A stretch of DNA of 64,000 nt, from NCBI RefSeq assembly GCF_002855575.1, contig NZ_PKRQ01000001.1, forward strand, positions 496,001 through 560,000. Direction: 5' to 3'. The stretch comes from Tabrizicola sp. TH137. GTDB taxonomy: Bacteria; Pseudomonadota; Alphaproteobacteria; Rhodobacterales; Rhodobacteraceae. Shown here one piece after another: positions 18 through 8,640 of the stretch. Under the pieces are notes generated by a model. The model saw only the letters and a list, made by a program, of their open reading frames with translations. It did no database searches and was not told where the DNA came from. The translations under genes were made by a program, and so were the position numbers. Positions within the stretch are counted from its first letter, which is position 1. The number at the start of each line of letters is the position of its first letter.

Positions 18-2540
18 ATGATCCTCTCGAATAAGCCTCGGATTCGTAAATGCATTACCGCGCTGCCCCTGATTCTCCTCCTTCCCGGCATCGGAAACCC
101 AGCGGGTGCGGCGACTGTTGACCTGGTCGGGACAAACGGAATTCTGGGCGTTTCGGGCGTGAATCCCGGGGAGTCCGGGACGGACGGGGGGAATGGCGGC
201 GATGCCGTGGCCCTGTCGAATGCGGATGTGACCAGTAACGAGGCCTATGCGACCGGGGGCAACGGGGGGGATGGCGGCGTTGGCGTGCTTCCGGGCGGGT
301 CGCAGGGTGCGGGCGGCAATGGCGGCGGGGCGAGTGCGACGGCGACCACGGTCAATCCGGGCGGCGGGGCGACTGCGTCGGCACGGGCGACGGGCGGAAC
401 GGGTGGAAACGCCGGCTTCGTCGGAGAGCTTGGCGCAGGCGGCGGGGCCGGTGGCGCGGCGACGGCCAGCGCCAGTACGGAAGCGGCGGGTGGCAATGCG
501 GATTCGCGGAGCGAAGCCTATGGCGGCACTGGCGGCGCGGGATATGGGGTCGGGCATGTCGGTGGAGAGGGCGGGATCGCGACGGCCTTTGCCGATGCGG
601 TTCAGAATTCCGCTGACGGTGGAGTGTACGCGCAGGCATGGCAATTCGGCGGCGCGGGCGGCATCGGTTTTGCGGGGGCCGATGGCGGGAGCGGCGCAGA
701 ATCGGTGATGACCAATGCCACCACGGCGACTGGGCTGGCGTTCAACACTACCCTGAACTCCTACGGCGCTGGGGGCGCCGGGGGCGATACCGCAGGTGGC
801 GGGAATGGCGGGCGCGGCGGGGATGCAACGACGGTGCTGTCCTTCAGCAAGGATGGCGACAGCCAGACGTTTAACAGCGCGAGGGCCGACGCGACGGGGG
901 GCACGGGTGGCAGCACCAATGACGGGGGCCTGGGCGGACAGGGCGGCAATGCCGGGGTTGATCTGGATATGGTTGCGTCGGGGCTGGACCATTGGCTGAC
1001 CGCAACCGGCACTGCGACGGGCGGGGCCTCGGGTAGATCGACCAGCGGAAACGGCCTTGCGGGCGGGTCGGCGACGTCTTCGGTTTCGGTGATGTCCGAG
1101 AAGAGTGAACGCCGATGGTTTCAGTATGACTCGGCAAGCAGTTCGGCTTTCGGTGGCAAGGGGGGCGATGCAAGTGGCCCCGGCTTTGCTGGCGGCGTCG
1201 GGGGGACGGCATCGGCATCGGCTTCGGCCGTCAGTGATGGATATGCCGCAGCGACTGCGAGCCAGATTGGCGGAGCGGGCGGAGATGGGCGGAATGGTGC
1301 GCGTGGCGGGGACGGGGCTGCCTCTATAATGACGAATGCCGTCGCGGCGACTTCGCCGTTCGGCATCAACCTCGCGCAAAATGCCTATGGAGGTGCAGGC
1401 GGAGCAAGCGACAGCCAAGGGGGACGTGGCGGGGATGCAACCTCTTCCCTCACGCTCGACATGGGAACGGCTGCGAGTGATGTGTTTGCCTCTGTTTATG
1501 CCGCGGGCGGGGCTGGAGGAACGACCTTCGGCAACCCCCTTAGCATTGACGGGGATGGGGGGGATGCGACGGCGCTTGTGGACGTCACCGCACTCAACAC
1601 GACGTCGGCAACAGTTTATGCACAGGCGCGAGGCGGATCAGCGGGAAATGTTTTCTATTCCGGTGGTTCGGATGAGGCTGACGGAAGCGCCACGGCCAAC
1701 GCGCGGCTGACCATGGGGGCTGATAACGCCTACGGGGCAGTGAGTGCAAATGCCTATAGCGGGACCGCCTGCCTTGGCTGCGGAAGCAATACAGGCAACA
1801 GCGCCGATGCCCTGGCCGAGGTGGTGGGTGCGACCGGAGGCTATGCCGCGGCAAACAGCACATCGGCGGGCAGCAGCGGCTATGTCGAGGCCAACAGCTA
1901 TGCGACGGTCGCCAGCCCGGCCACGGCGGTGACGCATTCAAGCGTCGGGACGGCGGTCACGCCCGGTGTCTTTGGCCTTCTGGCCGGGACGGCGGTCAGC
2001 AAGGCGGTTCTGGCGCCGACGGGGCCGGACTTCGGAACGGCGACTCAGACCTTCGGCTATGGCCTGTTCGAGGCCGCCTATGGCGGGATCGGGGAAACCG
2101 CTGGCCAGTACCGGGGATCTGCCTCCTTCTCCTTCCTGACGACCCTGGGCGAGGGGCTTTATCTGGATTTCCTGACGTCCAGAGCCCTGGAGACGGCCTT
2201 TGACACGCTGACCTTCAGCCTGACGCTTGGCGCGTTGAACCTGAACGAGACCTTTTCCGACCTTGCCTCGTTCCAGAGCTTTTTCGATGCGGATCATTTC
2301 CTTGGGAATGGCGATGGCGGGTTTCAGACGGTGTTCGTCAGCTATACCTACACCTCGCTCTTCCAAGGTTCGGGCTTCGGCTTTGATTACCGGCTGGCGA
2401 ACGGGCCGCGGGTGGAGGTGAATCCGGTGCCTCTGCCCGGCGGGTTCGTGCTGCTGCTGGGGGCGCTTTTGTCCGGCGTGCTGATGGCGCGGGGGCGGAA
2501 GGCGGCGCGGGGCGACGGGGCGCTGCTGCGGGCGGCCTGA
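18..2540 (+). CDS. Gly/Ala-rich exported protein with VPLPA-CTERM-type sorting signal
   Basis: An 840-residue protein. An N-terminal signal peptide (about residues 1-31, basic n-region, hydrophobic core, AxA-like end) precedes roughly 600 residues of low-complexity sequence. That stretch is built on GGxGG and GGNGGD-type motifs alternating with Ala/Ser/Thr segments. Residues about 660-790 are a non-repetitive domain I do not recognise. The C-terminus carries VPLPG (about 804-808), a short hydrophobic helix and a basic Arg/Lys tail, the layout of VPLPA-CTERM proteins thought to be handled by an exosortase-like enzyme in alphaproteobacteria. No exosortase gene is in the window. Probably a surface or secreted structural protein; the exact role is unknown. 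It is the first gene, so upstream context is not visible. Start ATG is the only one before the signal peptide. Confidence 0.85.
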   Translation: MILSNKPRIRKCITALPLILLLPGIGNPAGAATVDLVGTNGILGVSGVNPGESGTDGGNGGDAVALSNADVTSNEAYATGGNGGDGGVGVLPGGSQGAGGNGGGASATATTVNPGGGATASARATGGTGGNAGFVGELGAGGGAGGAATASASTEAAGGNADSRSEAYGGTGGAGYGVGHVGGEGGIATAFADAVQNSADGGVYAQAWQFGGAGGIGFAGADGGSGAESVMTNATTATGLAFNTTLNSYGAGGAGGDTAGGGNGGRGGDATTVLSFSKDGDSQTFNSARADATGGTGGSTNDGGLGGQGGNAGVDLDMVASGLDHWLTATGTATGGASGRSTSGNGLAGGSATSSVSVMSEKSERRWFQYDSASSSAFGGKGGDASGPGFAGGVGGTASASASAVSDGYAAATASQIGGAGGDGRNGARGGDGAASIMTNAVAATSPFGINLAQNAYGGAGGASDSQGGRGGDATSSLTLDMGTAASDVFASVYAAGGAGGTTFGNPLSIDGDGGDATALVDVTALNTTSATVYAQARGGSAGNVFYSGGSDEADGSATANARLTMGADNAYGAVSANAYSGTACLGCGSNTGNSADALAEVVGATGGYAAANSTSAGSSGYVEANSYATVASPATAVTHSSVGTAVTPGVFGLLAGTAVSKAVLAPTGPDFGTATQTFGYGLFEAAYGGIGETAGQYRGSASFSFLTTLGEGLYLDFLTSRALETAFDTLTFSLTLGALNLNETFSDLASFQSFFDADHFLGNGDGGFQTVFVSYTYTSLFQGSGFGFDYRLANGPRVEVNPVPLPGGFVLLLGALLSGVLMARGRKAARGDGALLRAA

Positions 2541-2654: not shown

Positions 2655-3875
2655 ATGGACGACAGACCCCCCACCGCCGCCTGGCGGCCGCAGACCATGG
2701 CGCTGGATGGCGGGCTGGTGATCGACCCGGTGACGGGGGCGATCCAGCCCAACATCTCCATGTCCGTGAACAACCTTGTGGTGCCGGGCGAAGGGGCGTT
2801 TTCGGCGGCGGAACTGGGGGATATCGCTGCGGAGCCCTTTACCTATGCGCGCTGGCTGAACCCCACGGTGCGGGGGCTGGAGGCGCGGATGGCGGCGCTG
2901 GAAGGGGCCGAGGATGCGGTGGCCTTTGCGACCGGGGTTGCGGCCATCGCGGGGGTGTTCCTGACGCTGCTGAAGGCGGGCGACCATCTGGTGATCGCCG
3001 ATGTGACCTATGCGGGGGCGGCGGAACTGGCGCGGACGATCCTGCCCGATCTGGGGATCGACGTGACGCCGGTGAACCTGTCGGACCCCGGCGCGCTGGA
3101 GGCGGCGCTGCGGCCCAATACGCGGCTGGTGCATTGCGAAAGCCCGGCCAACCCCATCCTGCGGCTGACCGATCTGGCAGAAGTGGCGCGCATCGCCCAT
3201 GCCCATGGCGCGCTGGTATCGGTGGACAGCACGCTGGCGACGCCGGTGGCGACGCGGCCCCTGGCGCTGGGGGTCGATCTGGTGATCCATTCGCTGACCA
3301 AGTTCATCAACGGCCATGGCGATGCCCTGGGCGGCATCGTGGCGGGGCGGCGCGATCTGGTGGCACGTTTGCGGGGGCGGGCGGGGGTCTATCTGGGCGC
3401 GGCGCTGCCGGCGATGAACGCCTGGCTGATCCTGCGGGGGATCGACACGCTGTTCCCCCGGATGCGGCAGATCTCGGAAACGGCGGGGCGGGTGGCAGCC
3501 TTCCTTGAGGGGCATCCAAAGGTGGAGCGGGTGATCCATCCGGGGCTGCCGTCGCATCCGCAGCGCGACCTTGTGCAGCGGCAGATGGACCTGCCGGGGG
3601 GGATGATCTTCTTCCAGACCCGCGACCTGCGGGCGACGGCGGCGCGGATCGCGGCGCGGCTGAAGGTGGCGCATTACGCCTTTTCGCTGGGCCATCAGCG
3701 CAGCATCATCGTGCTGTTGGAAACGGATGAGATGATGCGCGGCACCTATCGCCTGACCCCGTCGCAGGAGGCGGCCTATCGCGCCTATGCCGGGGATGGC
3801 GGATTCCGCCTTTCGGTCGGGCTGGAGGCGGCGGAGGATCTGATCGCCGATCTGGATCAGGCGCTGGCGGACTAG
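2655..3875 (+). CDS. Cys/Met metabolism PLP-dependent enzyme (cystathionine gamma-synthase/lyase family)
   Basis: 406 residues, normal for the fold-type I transsulfuration family that includes cystathionine gamma-synthase, cystathionine gamma-lyase and methionine gamma-lyase. The PLP lysine lies in HSLTKFINGHGDALGG, with the aspartate of VDSTLATP upstream of it; the YARWLNPT stretch near the N-terminus matches the family's Tyr-x-Arg phosphate-binding region. The C-terminal SVGLE motif is also present. The ATG at 2655 is chosen because AAGGAC lies about 10 nt upstream and the family homology begins shortly after; an earlier in-frame ATG at 2589 would add 22 unconserved residues. The gene stands alone ahead of the arsenic operon. 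Substrate cannot be decided from sequence. Confidence 0.85.
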   Translation: MDDRPPTAAWRPQTMALDGGLVIDPVTGAIQPNISMSVNNLVVPGEGAFSAAELGDIAAEPFTYARWLNPTVRGLEARMAALEGAEDAVAFATGVAAIAGVFLTLLKAGDHLVIADVTYAGAAELARTILPDLGIDVTPVNLSDPGALEAALRPNTRLVHCESPANPILRLTDLAEVARIAHAHGALVSVDSTLATPVATRPLALGVDLVIHSLTKFINGHGDALGGIVAGRRDLVARLRGRAGVYLGAALPAMNAWLILRGIDTLFPRMRQISETAGRVAAFLEGHPKVERVIHPGLPSHPQRDLVQRQMDLPGGMIFFQTRDLRATAARIAARLKVAHYAFSLGHQRSIIVLLETDEMMRGTYRLTPSQEAAYRAYAGDGGFRLSVGLEAAEDLIADLDQALAD

Positions 3876-3910
3876 GCTGTCATCAAAGCTTCATTTGAGG
3901 CGGGCCATCA

Positions 3911-3928
3911 TTTCCGATATTCGGGAAA
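3911..3928. promoter_or_regulatory. Probable ArsR operator upstream of the arsR-arsC fusion
   Basis: The imperfect palindrome TTTCCGATATTCGGGAAA ends one base before the arsR-arsC start codon. An 18-bp element of the same plan (TTTC-N10-GAAA) precedes the second arsR gene at 8495-8512. A candidate -35 (TTGAGG, 3895-3900) lies upstream, and the GATATT inside the palindrome could serve as the -10, so a bound repressor would block the promoter. Inference from symmetry and position. Confidence 0.5.
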
Positions 3929-3929
3929 T

Positions 3930-4775
3930 ATGGAACAGAATCGCGCCGCCCATGCCTTTGCCACGCTTGGCCATCCCGGCCGGTTGGCCGTCTTTCGCCT
4001 GCTGATGCGCTTTGCGCCGCAGGGGCAGCGGCCGACCGAGATTGCCGAGGCGCTGGCCCTGAAGGCCAACACGCTGTCGCATCATCTGGCGGACCTGACG
4101 GCCTCGGGTCTGGTGCAGGTCGAACGGCGGGGGCGGTCGCTGTTCTATTCCGTCGATCTGGAGGTGACCGAAGGGTTGATCGGGCATCTGGTCTTTGACA
4201 TCGGGCGGGGCCGGCCGGACCTGATCCCGCCGCTGCTGGCTGCTGCACAGGAGGCGCATATGCGCGACACGGATTTCGACGTGCTGTTCATCTGTTCGGG
4301 CAATTCCTCCCGGTCGATCTTTGCCGAGGCGCTGCTGCGCGATCTGGGCAAGGGAAAGTTCCAGGCCTTTTCGGCGGGGACGCGGCCCAATACGGAGTTG
4401 AACCCGCTGGCGCTGGAGGTGCTGCGGCGCAATGGGCATGAGGTAGAGGGGCTGCGGTCCAAGCATATCAGCGAATTCCAGCAGCCCGGGTCCATCGTGA
4501 TGGATTTCGTCTTCACCGTCTGCGACACGGCGGCGGCGGAGGAATGCCCGCCCTGGCCGGGCCAGCCGATCACCGGGCATTGGGGCCTGCCCGACCCGGT
4601 GAAGGCCACGGGGACGGAGGCCGAGAAGGCGCTGGTCTTCGCCCAGACCTATGCCGCCCTGCGCCGCCGGATCGCGGCCTTTGTGGAACTGCCCTTCGAG
4701 CAATTGGGGCGGATGTCGCTTCAGGCCCGCGTCGATGCCATTGGCACCGATCAACTGACCCCCGAGAAAGGCTGA
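3930..4775 (+). CDS. ArsR-ArsC fusion: transcriptional regulator plus arsenate reductase
   Basis: 281 residues with two domains. Residues 1-105 are an ArsR/SmtB winged helix; the recognition helix is around [16 protein letters not shown], residues 45-60. Residues 113-281 are a low-molecular-weight phosphatase-fold arsenate reductase. Its P-loop is CSGNSSRS (nucleophile Cys122, Arg128), followed by a second cysteine pair Cys198 and Cys206 in [11 protein letters not shown]. The ArsR part contains no cysteine, so the usual As(III) thiol site is missing there. The Cys that ends the S. aureus-type P-loop (CTGNSCR) is Ser here, as in some other ArsC branches. First gene of an operon with gapdh and arsJ (4-nt gap to gapdh). 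No clear ribosome-binding site precedes the ATG; the mRNA may be leaderless. Confidence 0.88.
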
Positions 4776-4779
4776 CCCC

Positions 4780-5787
4780 ATGCCCCGTATCGCGTTGAAC
4801 GGCCTTGGCCGTATCGGCAAGCTTGTCCTGCGCGACCTGATCGACAGCGGCGCGGGGGGCGAGATCGTCCTGCTGAACGATCCTGTCGGGGATGCCGAAC
4901 AGCATGCCCTGCTGATGGAGTTTGATTCCGTCCATGGCCGCTGGCGGACGCCGGTCGCGGCGGCGGAGGGGGCGCTGATCCTGAACGGGCAGCGCATCCG
5001 GCTGACGCATGAGAAGACGATCGAGGCGCTGCCTCTGGCCGAGATGGGGGTCGATCTGGTGATCGACGCGACCGGGGTCTTCAAGACGGGGGCGAAGGTC
5101 GCGCCCTATTACGCGGCGGGCGTGAAGAAGGTTGTGGTCAGCGCGCCGGTCAAGGATGGCGGGGCGCTGAACCTTGTCTATGGGGTGAACCATCATCTTT
5201 ATGACGGGTCGCAGACCCTTGTGACCGCCGCCTCCTGCACGACGAATTGCCTTGCCCCGGTGGTGAAGGTGATCCACGAAAGCCTTGGCATCCGGCACGG
5301 GTCGATCACCACGATCCATGACGTGACAAACACCCAGACCATCGTGGACCGCCCCGCCAAGGATATGCGCCGCGCGCGGTCGGCGCTGATGAACCTGATC
5401 CCCACGACGACGGGCAGCGCCACGGCGATCACGCTGATCTATCCCGAGTTGAAGGGGCGGCTGAACGGCCATGCGGTGCGGGTGCCGCTGCTGAATGCCT
5501 CGCTGACCGATTGCGTCTTCGAGGTGGAGCGGGCGACGACGGTGGAGGAGGTGAATACCCTGTTCGCCGCCGCTGCGGACGGGCCGCTGAAAGGTATCCT
5601 TGGATATGAGACGCGGCCGCTTGTCTCGTGCGATTTCACCAATGATCCGCGGTCTTCGATCGTGGATGCGCAATCGACCATGGTCATCAACGGGACGCAG
5701 GTGAAGATCTACGCCTGGTATGACAATGAATGGGGCTATGCCTGCCGCCTGGCCGATATCGCGCGCATGGTGGCGGCGCGGCTGTGA
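4780..5787 (+). CDS. ArsJ-associated glyceraldehyde-3-phosphate dehydrogenase
   Basis: 335 residues, full-length GAPDH. The N-terminal NAD-binding GLGRIGK motif, the active site SCTTNCLAP (Cys153), the general-base His180 and the C-terminal [11 protein letters not shown] signature are all present. In ars operons with arsJ this enzyme uses arsenate in place of phosphate to make 1-arseno-3-phosphoglycerate, which ArsJ exports (established for Pseudomonas aeruginosa). Here it follows the arsR-arsC fusion and overlaps arsJ by 4 bp (GTGA), so translation is probably coupled. Dedication to arsenic rather than central glycolysis is inferred from the operon. Confidence 0.93.
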
Positions 5788-7031
5788 CGGCGGCGAACCC
5801 GATCCGGGCCTATATGGCGGTGACGGCGGCCTATTGGGCCTTCATGCTGTCGGATGGCGCGTTGCGGATGCTGGTTCTGCTGCATTTCAACGGGCTGGGA
5901 TTCACGCCGCTGCAACTGGCCTGGCTGTTCCTGCTCTATGAACTGGCGGGGATCGTGACGAATCTGGGGGCGGGATGGCTGGCGGCGCGGTTCGGGCTGG
6001 CGGCGACGCTTTATGGCGGGCTGGCCTTGCAGATCGGGGCCCTGGCGGCGCTGGCGCAGCTTGATCCGACTTGGGGCATCGCGGCCTCGGTCGCCTTCGT
6101 GATGGCGGTGCAGGGCGTTTCGGGCGTGGCCAAGGACCTGGCGAAGATGTCTTCCAAATCGGCGGTGAAGCTGCTGGCCCCGGCGGAAGAGGGCGGGCTG
6201 TTCCGCTGGGTCGCCTATCTGACCGGATCGAAGAACGCGGTGAAGGGGGCGGGATTCTTCCTTGGCGCGGCGCTGCTGGCGCTGGCGGGGTTCGAGACGG
6301 CGGTCTGGGGCATGGCGGGGGTTCTGGCGGTGATCCTGGCAGCGGTGGCGCTGTTCCTGCCACCCGGCCTGCCGGGGCGGATGAAGGCCGAGGAAAGCTG
6401 GGGCGGCTGGCGGTCGCAGGATGCACGGGTGAATCGCCTGAGTCTGGCGCGGATGTTCCTCTTCGGGGCGCGGGATGTGTGGTTCGTGGTGGGCATCCCG
6501 ATCTATTTCCAGGCGATCCTGTCGGATGGCACCGCCGAGGGGCGGCGCGAGGCGTTCTTCCTTGTCGGCGGGTTCATGGCGCTGTGGATCATCGCCTATG
6601 GCGCGGTGCAGGCACTGGCCCCGCGCATTCTGGGCGGCAAGGGGCAGGCGGTGGAAGAGACGACGCGCAAGGCGGTGCGTTGGGCGGGGCTTCTGGTGCC
6701 GATCCCCTTTGTGCTGGCGGCGGCGGCCTATCTGGCCGGGGAACCGGAGGGATGGCTGACCGGGGCGCTGGTGGCGGGGCTTTTGCTGTTCGGCTTTGTC
6801 TTTGCGGTGAATTCGTCGGTCCATTCCTATCTGATCCTTGCCTTCGGATCGGCAGAGCGGATCACCCGCGATGTGGGGTTCTATTACATGGCCAATGCGG
6901 CGGGGCGTCTGATCGGGACGCTGCTGTCGGGGGTCAGTTATCAGGTCGGGGGGTTGCCGCTGTGCCTTGCGACGGCGGGGGGGATGGCGCTGTGCAGTTG
7001 GCTTGCGGGGCGGCGGCTTAGCCGCGTCTGA
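5784..7031 (+). CDS. arsJ: ArsJ organoarsenical efflux transporter (MFS)
   Basis: 415 residues, about 12 hydrophobic helices, major facilitator superfamily. The N-terminal [19 protein letters not shown] stretch and the [21 protein letters not shown] loop are characteristic of ArsJ. Exports 1-arseno-3-phosphoglycerate made by the adjacent GAPDH, which breaks down outside the cell to release arsenate. The start is the GTG at 5784, which overlaps the gapdh stop codon; an upstream ATG in the same frame at 5730 lies inside gapdh and is less likely. The 3' end overlaps the convergent MFS gene by 14 bp. Confidence 0.88.
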
Positions 7032-8175
7032 GCAGGAAGAGCGCGAGCGTGGCGAGGCAGCCGATCCCGGCCGTCAGCCAGATGGCGTTGAGGCCCCAGG
7101 CGGTGAGCGCCGCCCCGAAGATCAGCGGGGCGGCCGCCTGCGCGATGCGGGCGGGGGCGTTCAGCCAGCCAAGACGCTGGCCATAGCCCCCTGCCCCGAA
7201 CAGCGCGAGGGGAAGCGTTCCCTTGGCGATGGTCAGTATGCCGTTGCCTGCCCCGTGCAGCAGGGCGAAGGCATAGGCCGCCGGGCCGCCAAAGGCCATC
7301 AGGACCATCGCCGCCACCGGATGCGCCGCAGCCGCCATGCGGGCCGAGGCGAGCGGGTGGAAGCGGCGCAGAAGGCCGAATTCCAGGACCCGCGCCGCCA
7401 CCTGCGCCGGGCCGATCAACGCGCCTGCGGCGATGGCCAGCGCGGTGCTGGCCCCCGCGGCCTGAAGGAGGCCCGGCAGATGCGCCGCCATCGCGGTGGC
7501 GTTGAACCATGTCGCGGCAAAGACGAAGGCCAGAAGGGCCATCGCCCCGCGCGGCGGGGGTGGGGCGTCGGGGGCGGTGTCGGGTTCAGCCTCGGGTTTG
7601 GTTTCGGTCCCGGTGGGCAGAAGTGCGTTCAGCGGCAGGGCAAGGCAGAGATGCAGGATCGCCCAGCCCAGACAGGCCTCGCGCCAGCCCCATTGCGCGA
7701 GCATGAGGCCCGAAAGCGGCCATCCCACGGTGCTGGCAAAGCCCGCGATCAGGGTGATGCCGGTGATCGGCCCGCGCGCCCCGCGCCCGTAGATGCCTGC
7801 GAGCGTGGCGAATCCCGCCTCGTAAAGACCCATCCCCATGCCCAGGCCGATGATGGCCCAGCCCGCGAAAAGCACCGCCGGAGAGGGTGCGACGGCCAGC
7901 AGGACAAGGCCCGTGGCGAAGACGAGGTTCGACAGCATCAGCACGCCGCGCCCGCCGATCCGGTCGATCCGCGCGCCCGCCCAGGGGCCGATGGCGGCCG
8001 AAACGACCATGGCCATGGAGAAGGCCCCGAAGACCCAGACGGGCGAGAGGCCGAAGCTGGCCGCCATCGGCGTGGCGAGGACGGCAGGGATGTAATAGCT
8101 GGAGGCCCAGCCCACGGTCTGGGCCGTGCCGAGGGCGGCGACGATCCAGCCGCGACGGTCAGGGGACAGGCGCAT
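7018..8175 (-). CDS. MFS transporter next to an ArsR-family regulator
   Basis: 385 residues (ATG at 8175), roughly 12 membrane segments split by a Pro/Glu-rich central loop (about residues 200-220, ending in PPPPRG). It begins MRLSPDRRGWIVAALG. Major facilitator family; substrate not recognisable. It lies 2 bp downstream of an arsR gene on the same strand and is almost certainly its operon partner. It converges on arsJ, so the two arsenic-type transcription units meet tail to tail. It could export arsenite or another metalloid, but no diagnostic residues are visible, so the arsenic role is inference from context. Confidence 0.75.
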   Translation of the reverse strand: MRLSPDRRGWIVAALGTAQTVGWASSYYIPAVLATPMAASFGLSPVWVFGAFSMAMVVSAAIGPWAGARIDRIGGRGVLMLSNLVFATGLVLLAVAPSPAVLFAGWAIIGLGMGMGLYEAGFATLAGIYGRGARGPITGITLIAGFASTVGWPLSGLMLAQWGWREACLGWAILHLCLALPLNALLPTGTETKPEAEPDTAPDAPPPPRGAMALLAFVFAATWFNATAMAAHLPGLLQAAGASTALAIAAGALIGPAQVAARVLEFGLLRRFHPLASARMAAAAHPVAAMVLMAFGGPAAYAFALLHGAGNGILTIAKGTLPLALFGAGGYGQRLGWLNAPARIAQAAAPLIFGAALTAWGLNAIWLTAGIGCLATLALFLLRRG

Positions 8176-8177
8176 GG

Positions 8178-8474
8178 TCAGGGGTGCCCCGCATCGGCAC
8201 AGCATTCCGCCGCCAGATCGCCCAGCAGCGCCTGCATCACCGGATAGTTCGTGCGGCAGATCAGCGCCGTCCCGGCGCGTTCCTGCGTGATGAGCCCGAC
8301 CAGAACCAGCGCGCGGACGTGATGCGACAGGGTGGAGGCCGGGATGCCCAGCCGATCCTGCACCTGCCCCATGGTCAGCCCGCCCTCCCCCGCCCGGACC
8401 AGCAGGCGATACAGGCGCAGCCGCGTCGGATTGCCCAGCGCGGCAAGGCGGGCGGCGGTGGTGTCGATGTCCAT
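8178..8474 (-). CDS. ArsR-family transcriptional regulator
   Basis: 98 residues from the ATG at 8474, which has an AGAGG ribosome site upstream; an ATG at 8525 would add 17 residues that run through the putative operator. Winged helix with recognition helix near IPASTLSHHVRALV. Cysteines occur at 73, 91 and 92; the C-terminal ECC pair resembles the vicinal Cys95-Cys96 of the Acidithiobacillus ferrooxidans ArsR-type As(III) site, although that protein's third cysteine (Cys102) has no equivalent here. Likely repressor of itself and the adjacent MFS gene. Confidence 0.85.
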   Translation of the reverse strand: MDIDTTAARLAALGNPTRLRLYRLLVRAGEGGLTMGQVQDRLGIPASTLSHHVRALVLVGLITQERAGTALICRTNYPVMQALLGDLAAECCADAGHP

Positions 8475-8494
8475 TGGGGGCCTCTTTTTCGGTA

Positions 8495-8512
8495 TTTCTA
8501 GAATATTCGAAA
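8495..8512. promoter_or_regulatory. Probable ArsR operator upstream of the second arsR
   Basis: TTTCTAGAATATTCGAAA, an imperfect palindrome containing TTCTAGAA and TTCGAA, lies 20 bp upstream of the arsR start at 8474. It shares length and half-sites (TTTC-N10-GAAA) with the element at 3911-3928 in front of the arsR-arsC fusion. Binding is inferred. Confidence 0.5.
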
Positions 8513-8640
8513 CTCTGGCCTGCACGCAAGGCCCCGCCCGGTTATCCCAAGGAAATGCCCCGCCCCGGCAAGAGCGAAGGCCGCGCCGTCTTGCCCCCGG
8601 CAGGCCGCAGGCACTAGGTTGGCCCGATCAAGGAGCGTCC

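Follow-up and report, generated by a model that had tools for sequence, protein, structure and literature searches.

An ArsR-ArsC fusion without thiols in its ArsR half heads a gapdh-arsJ operon behind a Pho-box-like element in Tabrizicola sp. TH137

Fusions between ArsR and ArsC, gapdh-arsJ operons and the Pho control of other arsenic genes are all already known, as far as the excerpted literature goes. ArsR-ArsC fusions have been reported in L. ferriphilum, Microbacterium, Sinorhizobium and Actinobacteria (PMC6205960, PMC6514093, PMC4443643); the same two proteins are joined there, and the excerpts of those papers mention neither a loss of the ArsR thiols, nor a gapdh-arsJ partner, nor a Pho box. 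In V. cholerae, the var operon (arsR-gapdh-varH-arsJ) is arsenate-inducible and, according to the excerpted text, its authors found no As(III) production there and suggested that its ArsR senses As(V) (PMC9601151). This ArsR (vc1068), in which the As(III) motif carries E-to-K and C-to-A changes, represses the operon and, like the fusion presented here, stands at the head of gapdh-arsJ with an altered As(III) motif; however, an ArsC fusion is not described in those excerpts, and the V. cholerae operon has an extra phosphatase gene (PMC9601151). By analogy, and within the excerpted account, it could be taken as a precedent for arsenate induction under an ArsR of this kind. Regarding phosphate, a Pho box lies before the aioBA genes of Halomonas sp. 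HAL1, with binding of PhoB shown in the excerpted report (PMC4563254); those are arsenite oxidase genes, whereas the box described below precedes arsRC-gapdh-arsJ and is predicted only. In Nodularia under phosphate limitation, the excerpted data give log2 increases of up to 2.4 for the ArsJ-associated GAPDH and 1.2 for ArsJ while ArsR falls, and the authors indicate that most arsenate-related genes had no clear change (PMC9846622). A literature search carried out largely without subscription papers and bioRxiv preprints returned no account of thiol-less ArsR halves in ArsR-ArsC fusions, nor of a Pho box before arsRC-gapdh-arsJ.

Among solved proteins, the thioredoxin-type ArsC enzymes (B. subtilis 1jl3, S. 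aureus pI258, D. indicus 8p5n) have the same fold and catalytic cysteines as the second half of our protein, but they are free enzymes, whereas the reductase of the fusion is joined to a DNA-binding domain. The closest solved ArsR, by sequence (4.1e-9 with the window protein) as well as by fold, is 6j05, which we take to be the ArsR from Acidithiobacillus ferrooxidans. Its As(III) ligands are presumably C95, C96 and C102, located at the C-terminal end of the dimerisation helix, and we know of no characterised As(III)-sensing ArsR that does without thiols. The 6j05 protein is stand-alone and thiol-bearing; in contrast, the protein studied here has I91, G92 and I99 in place of the three cysteines, plus an ArsC half.

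The window analysed is a stretch of 64,000 nucleotides of the Tabrizicola sp. TH137 genome, and the features that concern us are the following.

3877..3898, plus strand: Pho-box-like element, two 11-bp direct repeats, CTGTCATCAAA and GCTTCATTTGA (matrix score, conservation)
3910..3929, plus strand: putative operator, palindrome ATTTCC-N8-GGAAAT abutting the ATG, 0 mismatches, single match in the window
3930..4775, plus strand: arsRC, ArsR-ArsC fusion of 281 residues (translation, Pfam and NCBIfam profiles, structure matches)
3930..4259, plus strand: ArsR half, residues 1-110, winged helix without cysteine (translation, Pfam, AF2 model against 6j05)
4200..4226, plus strand: former thiol site, residues 91-99, IGRGRPDLI in the window protein (alignment of fusions, alignment with 6j05)
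4275..4685, plus strand: ArsC half, residues 116-252, thioredoxin-type, P-loop C122-SGNSSRS, C198/C206 (NCBIfam, structure matches)
4780..5787, plus strand: ArsJ-associated glyceraldehyde-3-phosphate dehydrogenase (NF033735, 543.1 bits against a cut-off of 450)
5784..7031, plus strand: ArsJ, MFS organoarsenical exporter (NF033734, 515.6 bits against a cut-off of 400)
7018-8525, minus strand: ArsR with an ECC tail, then an ArsK-like MFS gene, facing the arsRC-gapdh-arsJ operon (NCBIfam)

Since the fusion is followed by an ArsJ-associated GAPDH and then by ArsJ, both above their curated cut-offs, it is the first gene of an arsRC-gapdh-arsJ operon of the arsenate-efflux type, in which ArsJ, as read by eye, starts at a GTG overlapping the gapdh stop. 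Translation of 3930-4775 places cysteines only at 122, 198 and 206, the ArsC catalytic set, and thus bears out the earlier note, which had described an ArsR-ArsC fusion whose ArsR part has no Cys. Pfam recognises HTH_20 (13-64), HTH_5 (16-63) and LMWPc (118-250), and NCBIfam HTH_metalloreg (7-80) and arsC_pI258_fam (118-250). The winged helix is of the ArsR/SmtB type, with HTH_5 at 26 bits (cut-off 22) and HTH_metalloreg at 55.2 bits (cut-off 55). The arsC_pI258_fam match, of 67.8 bits, is under the family cut-off of 174.3 bits; the marks of a thioredoxin-type ArsC (P-loop Cys, two redox cysteines and HWG.xDP) are found as C122, C198, C206 and HWGLPDP. The ArsC half is a thioredoxin-type arsenate reductase, its activity being predicted from the sequence. 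An AlphaFold2 monomer model (66 sequences, mean pLDDT 87.5, pTM 0.80) matches both the ArsR (6j05) and the ArsC folds; among solved chains, the second half is nearest to ArsC-type enzymes and the first to 6j05.

The former thiol site was followed through 176 distinct full-length fusions plus the window protein (177 rows, drawn from 268 loci), which came from the best 80 of 571 confirmed stretches in named genomes and from loci selected among the matches listed at the family (295 genomes), class (385) and phylum (398) levels. This is a sample weighted to the relatives of the window protein, not a census; the relatives from named genomes, among those best 80 of 571, are mostly Rhodobacterales. 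At columns 91, 92 and 99, 73 fusions have all three cysteines and 90 have none, a proportion that is no population ratio because fusions near the window protein are over-represented, while seven keep only the first, six the first two and one only the second. Three rows (L252, L257 and L260), in which the end of the N-half is unalignable, were dropped from some counts, leaving 174 rows, 88 of them Cys-less at the site; 68 of these 88 have no Cys anywhere in residues 1-111. In the ArsC half, by comparison, C122 and C198 are kept in 177/177 fusions and C206 in 176/177, the sole exception being one of the three rows unalignable at the ArsR site.

Where the window protein reads IGRGRPDLI, triad-bearing fusions read CCRGRPxLC, and alignment of their N-half with 6j05 (3e-16), whose record title names an As(III)-responsive repressor, puts the Cys pairs in register, the ENCC stretch of 6j05 lining up with DCC. 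From this likeness, the ancestral triad of the fusions would have sensed As(III). As a control, stand-alone ArsR proteins of the same family have the Cys pair at the site in all 60 reads (59 distinct genes, as L393 repeats the gene of L348), a set that leans to Cys because its members were picked among the matches listed with a triad-containing search model. Around the site, D90 is found in 163/177 fusions and R95 in 169/177, and G92 in 98% of 87 Cys-less rows (L142 left out).

A separate observation concerns column 93, which is Arg in 155/174 fusions, whereas in stand-alone reads the position following the Cys pair holds Arg in 2/60 only. It is possible that this Arg marks a contact with the fused ArsC half; it is also common in triad-bearing fusions.

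A quick tree of 157 fusion rows, built with columns 91-99 excluded, has support below 80 on 69 of its 154 inner branches. Triad-bearing fusions are deep and paraphyletic in it, and the window protein falls within a set of 43 rows, 42 Cys-less and one with only the second cysteine. This set lies in a larger fork (support 84) of 70 rows, of which 68 are Cys-less, one keeps only the first cysteine and one only the second; near the base of this fork lie the triad-bearing L065 and L066 together with partial-triad rows. Among 154 rows, the minimum number of changes is four for 'none' versus 'some' and eight for 'full triad' versus 'not', counts that do not separate gain from loss. Of the four changes, we read one as the main loss and one as an independent loss in L142, a Cys-less row inside an otherwise triad-bearing group; the remaining two we assign to two single-Cys rows inside the Cys-less clade. 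Partial loss of the triad also occurs in several other rows. The loss of the ArsR thiols is thus secondary, having happened once in the large clade that holds the window protein and apparently again in L142.

Two causes of the loss were considered and rejected. The fusion event is ruled out by the deep position of triad-bearing fusions, and the gapdh-arsJ context alone by the fact that 58/73 triad-bearing fusions, too, are followed on the same strand by GAPDH at no more than 1.5 kb (82/89 Cys-less). The earlier note had held that homologues with the Cys present in the ArsR half would tell against its proposal, and such homologues abound: since 73/177 sampled fusions keep the full triad there, mostly in the same operon type, fusion did not require thiol loss, nor did the fusion arise as a replacement sensor.

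Constraint on the repressor half was estimated from 150 random Cys-less pairs, which are non-independent and leave out L142, and from 11 triad pairs within 78-95% identity. In the Cys-less set, residues 90-99 have a dN/dS of 0.044, compared with 0.104 in the winged helix and 0.111 in ArsC; residues 77-100, at 0.128, are as a whole no more constrained than the rest of the protein. In the triad set, residues 90-99 are likewise low, at 0.034 from 11 pairs only. By this estimate the emptied thiol site, at residues 90-99, is still under purifying selection. Its decay, which was also considered, is not supported there at a dN/dS of 0.044.

Immediately before the gene, the earlier note had placed an element at 3911-3928; the element is present as a perfect 6+6 palindrome and is slightly wider, spanning 3910-3929. 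In a scan of the window, the mean expected by chance at up to one mismatch is 0.09, and between the arms there is an A+T-rich, -10-like core. We infer that this palindrome is the binding site of the ArsR half. Across upstream regions, the arms pair at three core positions in 95-97% of 88 Cys-less and in 87-99% of 71 triad-bearing cases. The presumed recognition helix differs between the two sets at residues 51, 52 and 55, and the inner base of the operator differs as well, being CC..GG in the Cys-less set versus mostly C..G in the triad-bearing one; from these patterns we infer that DNA binding was kept and retuned in the Cys-less fusions. In 14/88 Cys-less fusions, column 59, past the recognition helix and before the wing, holds a single Cys. 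The mRNA of the operon may be leaderless, because the operator abuts the ATG (3910-3932) and there is no visible room for a ribosome-binding site. No match to a sigma-70-like promoter was found at 3800-4100.

Upstream of the operator, and starting one base past the stop codon of the preceding gene, lies the Pho-box-like element, whose 11-bp direct repeat, CTGTCAT.AAA-CCTTCA in the Cys-less set, resembles the PHO box as defined in the excerpted text of PMC4415409, with a second half-site, CTTCAT, that deviates from the canonical GTCAY. With a matrix made from 68 sites of other loci, it has the best score in the window (36.4 versus 3.7 for the next). At up to three mismatches to TGTCAYNNAANTGTCAY, a box of this kind is present in 80/90 Cys-less and 25/73 triad-bearing upstreams and in 0/90 shuffles, and a stricter pattern is present in 70/90 and 13/73, respectively; among the 78 Cys-less upstreams with a match, 75 have the core of the box ending 34-35 nt ahead of the ATG. 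The repeat resembles the boxes upstream of pstS, most often with two mismatches, and 15/20 pstS-type upstreams (20 of 30 fetched loci were used) match TGTCAYNNAANTGTCAY with no more than two. The Tabrizicola genome has two PhoB genes above the cut-off in a profile search and exactly one occurrence of the ars-type pattern. Among three further copies with one mismatch, one begins 78 nt ahead of an ORF read as phnG, and the others stand before groES-like and Mrp/ApbC-like ORFs (names by eye). Given that the box is present in 25/73 triad-bearing fusions and that the tree-controlled test of box against Cys loss, with 5-6 independent pairs only, was not significant, box and loss may share no more than ancestry. 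The element, overlooked in the earlier note, offers a route to induction that needs no arsenic sensing by the fusion.

At L283, a locus in a more distant genome of the same class, the ars-type boxes CTGTCATCAAAGGTTCAT and GTGTCATCAAAGGTTCAT (minus strand, ~1263 and ~2522) score highly near a pstS-type gene, one of the two being upstream of it.

With respect to arsenite export, a profile search of the Tabrizicola genome found no match to ACR3 or ArsB. Three ACR3 references, two taken from triad-bearing genomes and one from a Cys-less genome, were compared with the loci that extend 4 kb downstream of the fusion. A same-strand ACR3 is present in these 4 kb in 19/61 triad-bearing versus 1/69 Cys-less cases (Fisher p 2e-6, not corrected for ancestry), and an ACR3 anywhere in the locus in 21/61 and 9/69, respectively. 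At the level of whole genomes, ACR3 exceeds the cut-off in 24/34 triad-bearing and 15/34 Cys-less cases (p 0.05), and ArsB is rare in both sets (3/68 genomes above the cut-off). These counts make the Cys-less operon look closer to an arsenate-only cassette. The neighbouring ArsK-like MFS scores 222.4 bits, under the ArsK cut-off of 400, and may supply As(III) export.

At the beginning of the window, an 840-aa glycine-/alanine-rich repetitive ORF (18-2540, plus strand) closes with VPLPGG, followed by a hydrophobic segment and a basic tail; by eye, it resembles a cell-surface protein that carries a sorting signal at its C-terminus.

From the operon, the cysteine pattern, the nested loss, the operator and the Pho-box-like repeat, all of them read from the sequence, we derive repression, PhoB control and a release step, and we lean, with slightly more confidence than doubt, towards an operon wired to PhoB, in which the repressor has lost its reading of As(III) by ArsR thiols and is released most likely via the ArsC half. 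The ancestor would most likely have carried a 6j05-kind As(III) triad in its ArsR half and, presumably, was relieved by As(III). In the clade of the window protein, the three thiols have been replaced by V/L/I-G...L/I/M in a site that stays constrained. Since the thiols are gone and the winged helix and operator are kept, the fusion is probably still the repressor of its own operon, no longer relieved by As(III) at the ArsR half, which, having no thiols, cannot bind As(III) through them. Because the Pho-box-like element stands at a fixed distance upstream of the operator, phosphate limitation would most likely be what switches the operon on, at a time when Pst would let arsenate in, and the ArsR half would serve as a brake at the -10 region. 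Taken singly, the likeliest way to release this brake would be for arsenate or a redox change to engage the tethered ArsC half; close alternatives are that a non-thiol ligand binds the remodelled hinge, or that PhoB simply overrides the repressor. Speaking against this reading are the non-canonical second half-site of the box, the two genomic one-mismatch copies before groES-like and Mrp/ApbC-like ORFs, and the lack of a sigma-70-like match at 3800-4100.

The earlier note had proposed that ArsC could be the sensor, in a one-protein sensor-enzyme where its redox or As-bound state may control DNA binding. Spelled out, bound arsenate, arsenite or a C122-C198-C206 disulfide cascade in ArsC would alter the ArsR dimer and free the DNA. 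The part of this idea that stands is that the ArsC half holds the sole thiols available for direct sensing in the window protein, and most Cys-less fusions (68/88) have no Cys in residues 1-111 either. The ArsC cysteine set is kept in 176/177 fusions while the clade loses its ArsR thiols, but these cysteines are equally conserved in fusions that retain ArsR thiols, so that catalysis alone can explain their retention. The constraint on the emptied site (dN/dS 0.044) and the Arg at residue 93, much more frequent than in stand-alone ArsR reads, are consistent with a coupling of both halves; however, R93 is common to triad-bearing fusions and the structure model is that of a monomer only. Bulk As(III) production would lack a standard exit in a genome without ACR3 and ArsB, although the ArsK-like MFS may provide one. 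Taking both sides into account, we regard this proposal as tentative and on balance doubtful. It is very improbable that As(III) is sensed in trans by the neighbouring ECC-tail ArsR (8178-8525, minus strand), which has a Cys pair and lies 3.4 kb downstream of the fusion, also controlling the fusion operon: a similar ArsR is near 8/69 and an ArsK-like gene near 12/69 Cys-less fusions only, and the fusion operator is present just once in the window even when a mismatch is tolerated, on which ground an operator shared by both repressors was rejected. A palindrome suspected before the neighbouring arsR was not confirmed in the sequence.

A plain autorepressor, whose ArsR half reads no signal and sets a ceiling while induction comes from PhoB only, would agree with the fixed spacing of the Pho-like box in most Cys-less upstreams (80/90), with the presence of PhoB and with the lack of a sigma-70 match in the promoter region. 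A senseless sensor site would nevertheless be odd where residues 90-99 are at least as constrained as the winged helix and ArsC, an objection softened by the structural hinge role that could explain this constraint, and we consider such a repressor somewhat unlikely. Also unlikely is an effector that needs no thiols, for instance arsenate, phosphate or 1-arseno-3-phosphoglycerate, held by the remodelled ArsR half, perhaps at a D90/R93/R95 hinge. The arsenate-inducible var operon of V. cholerae, for which the authors suggest As(V) sensing by ArsR (excerpts of PMC9601151), speaks for this possibility, as do the conservation of D90 and R95 and the near-fixed G92 of the Cys-less rows; against it, D90, R93 and R95 are also conserved in triad-bearing fusions.

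The preferred reading, of a PhoB-wired operon released most likely via ArsC, could be carried further to the whole clade: after the thiol loss, the tethered reductase would read arsenate by its catalytic state and, at a PhoB-requiring promoter, the result would be an AND-type switch for arsenate and phosphate starvation. We hold this extension to be improbable as it stands.

The Cys-less fusions represent a natural experiment: at three defined positions a metalloid sensor has lost the thiols of its ligand site, with the repressor half, the operator and the enzyme all kept, and close relatives with an intact triad are available for direct comparison. They make testable the question raised for V. 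cholerae of whether the ArsR of a gapdh-arsJ operon responds to pentavalent arsenic instead of As(III), and they suggest that arsenate efflux is connected with phosphate control in Rhodobacterales.
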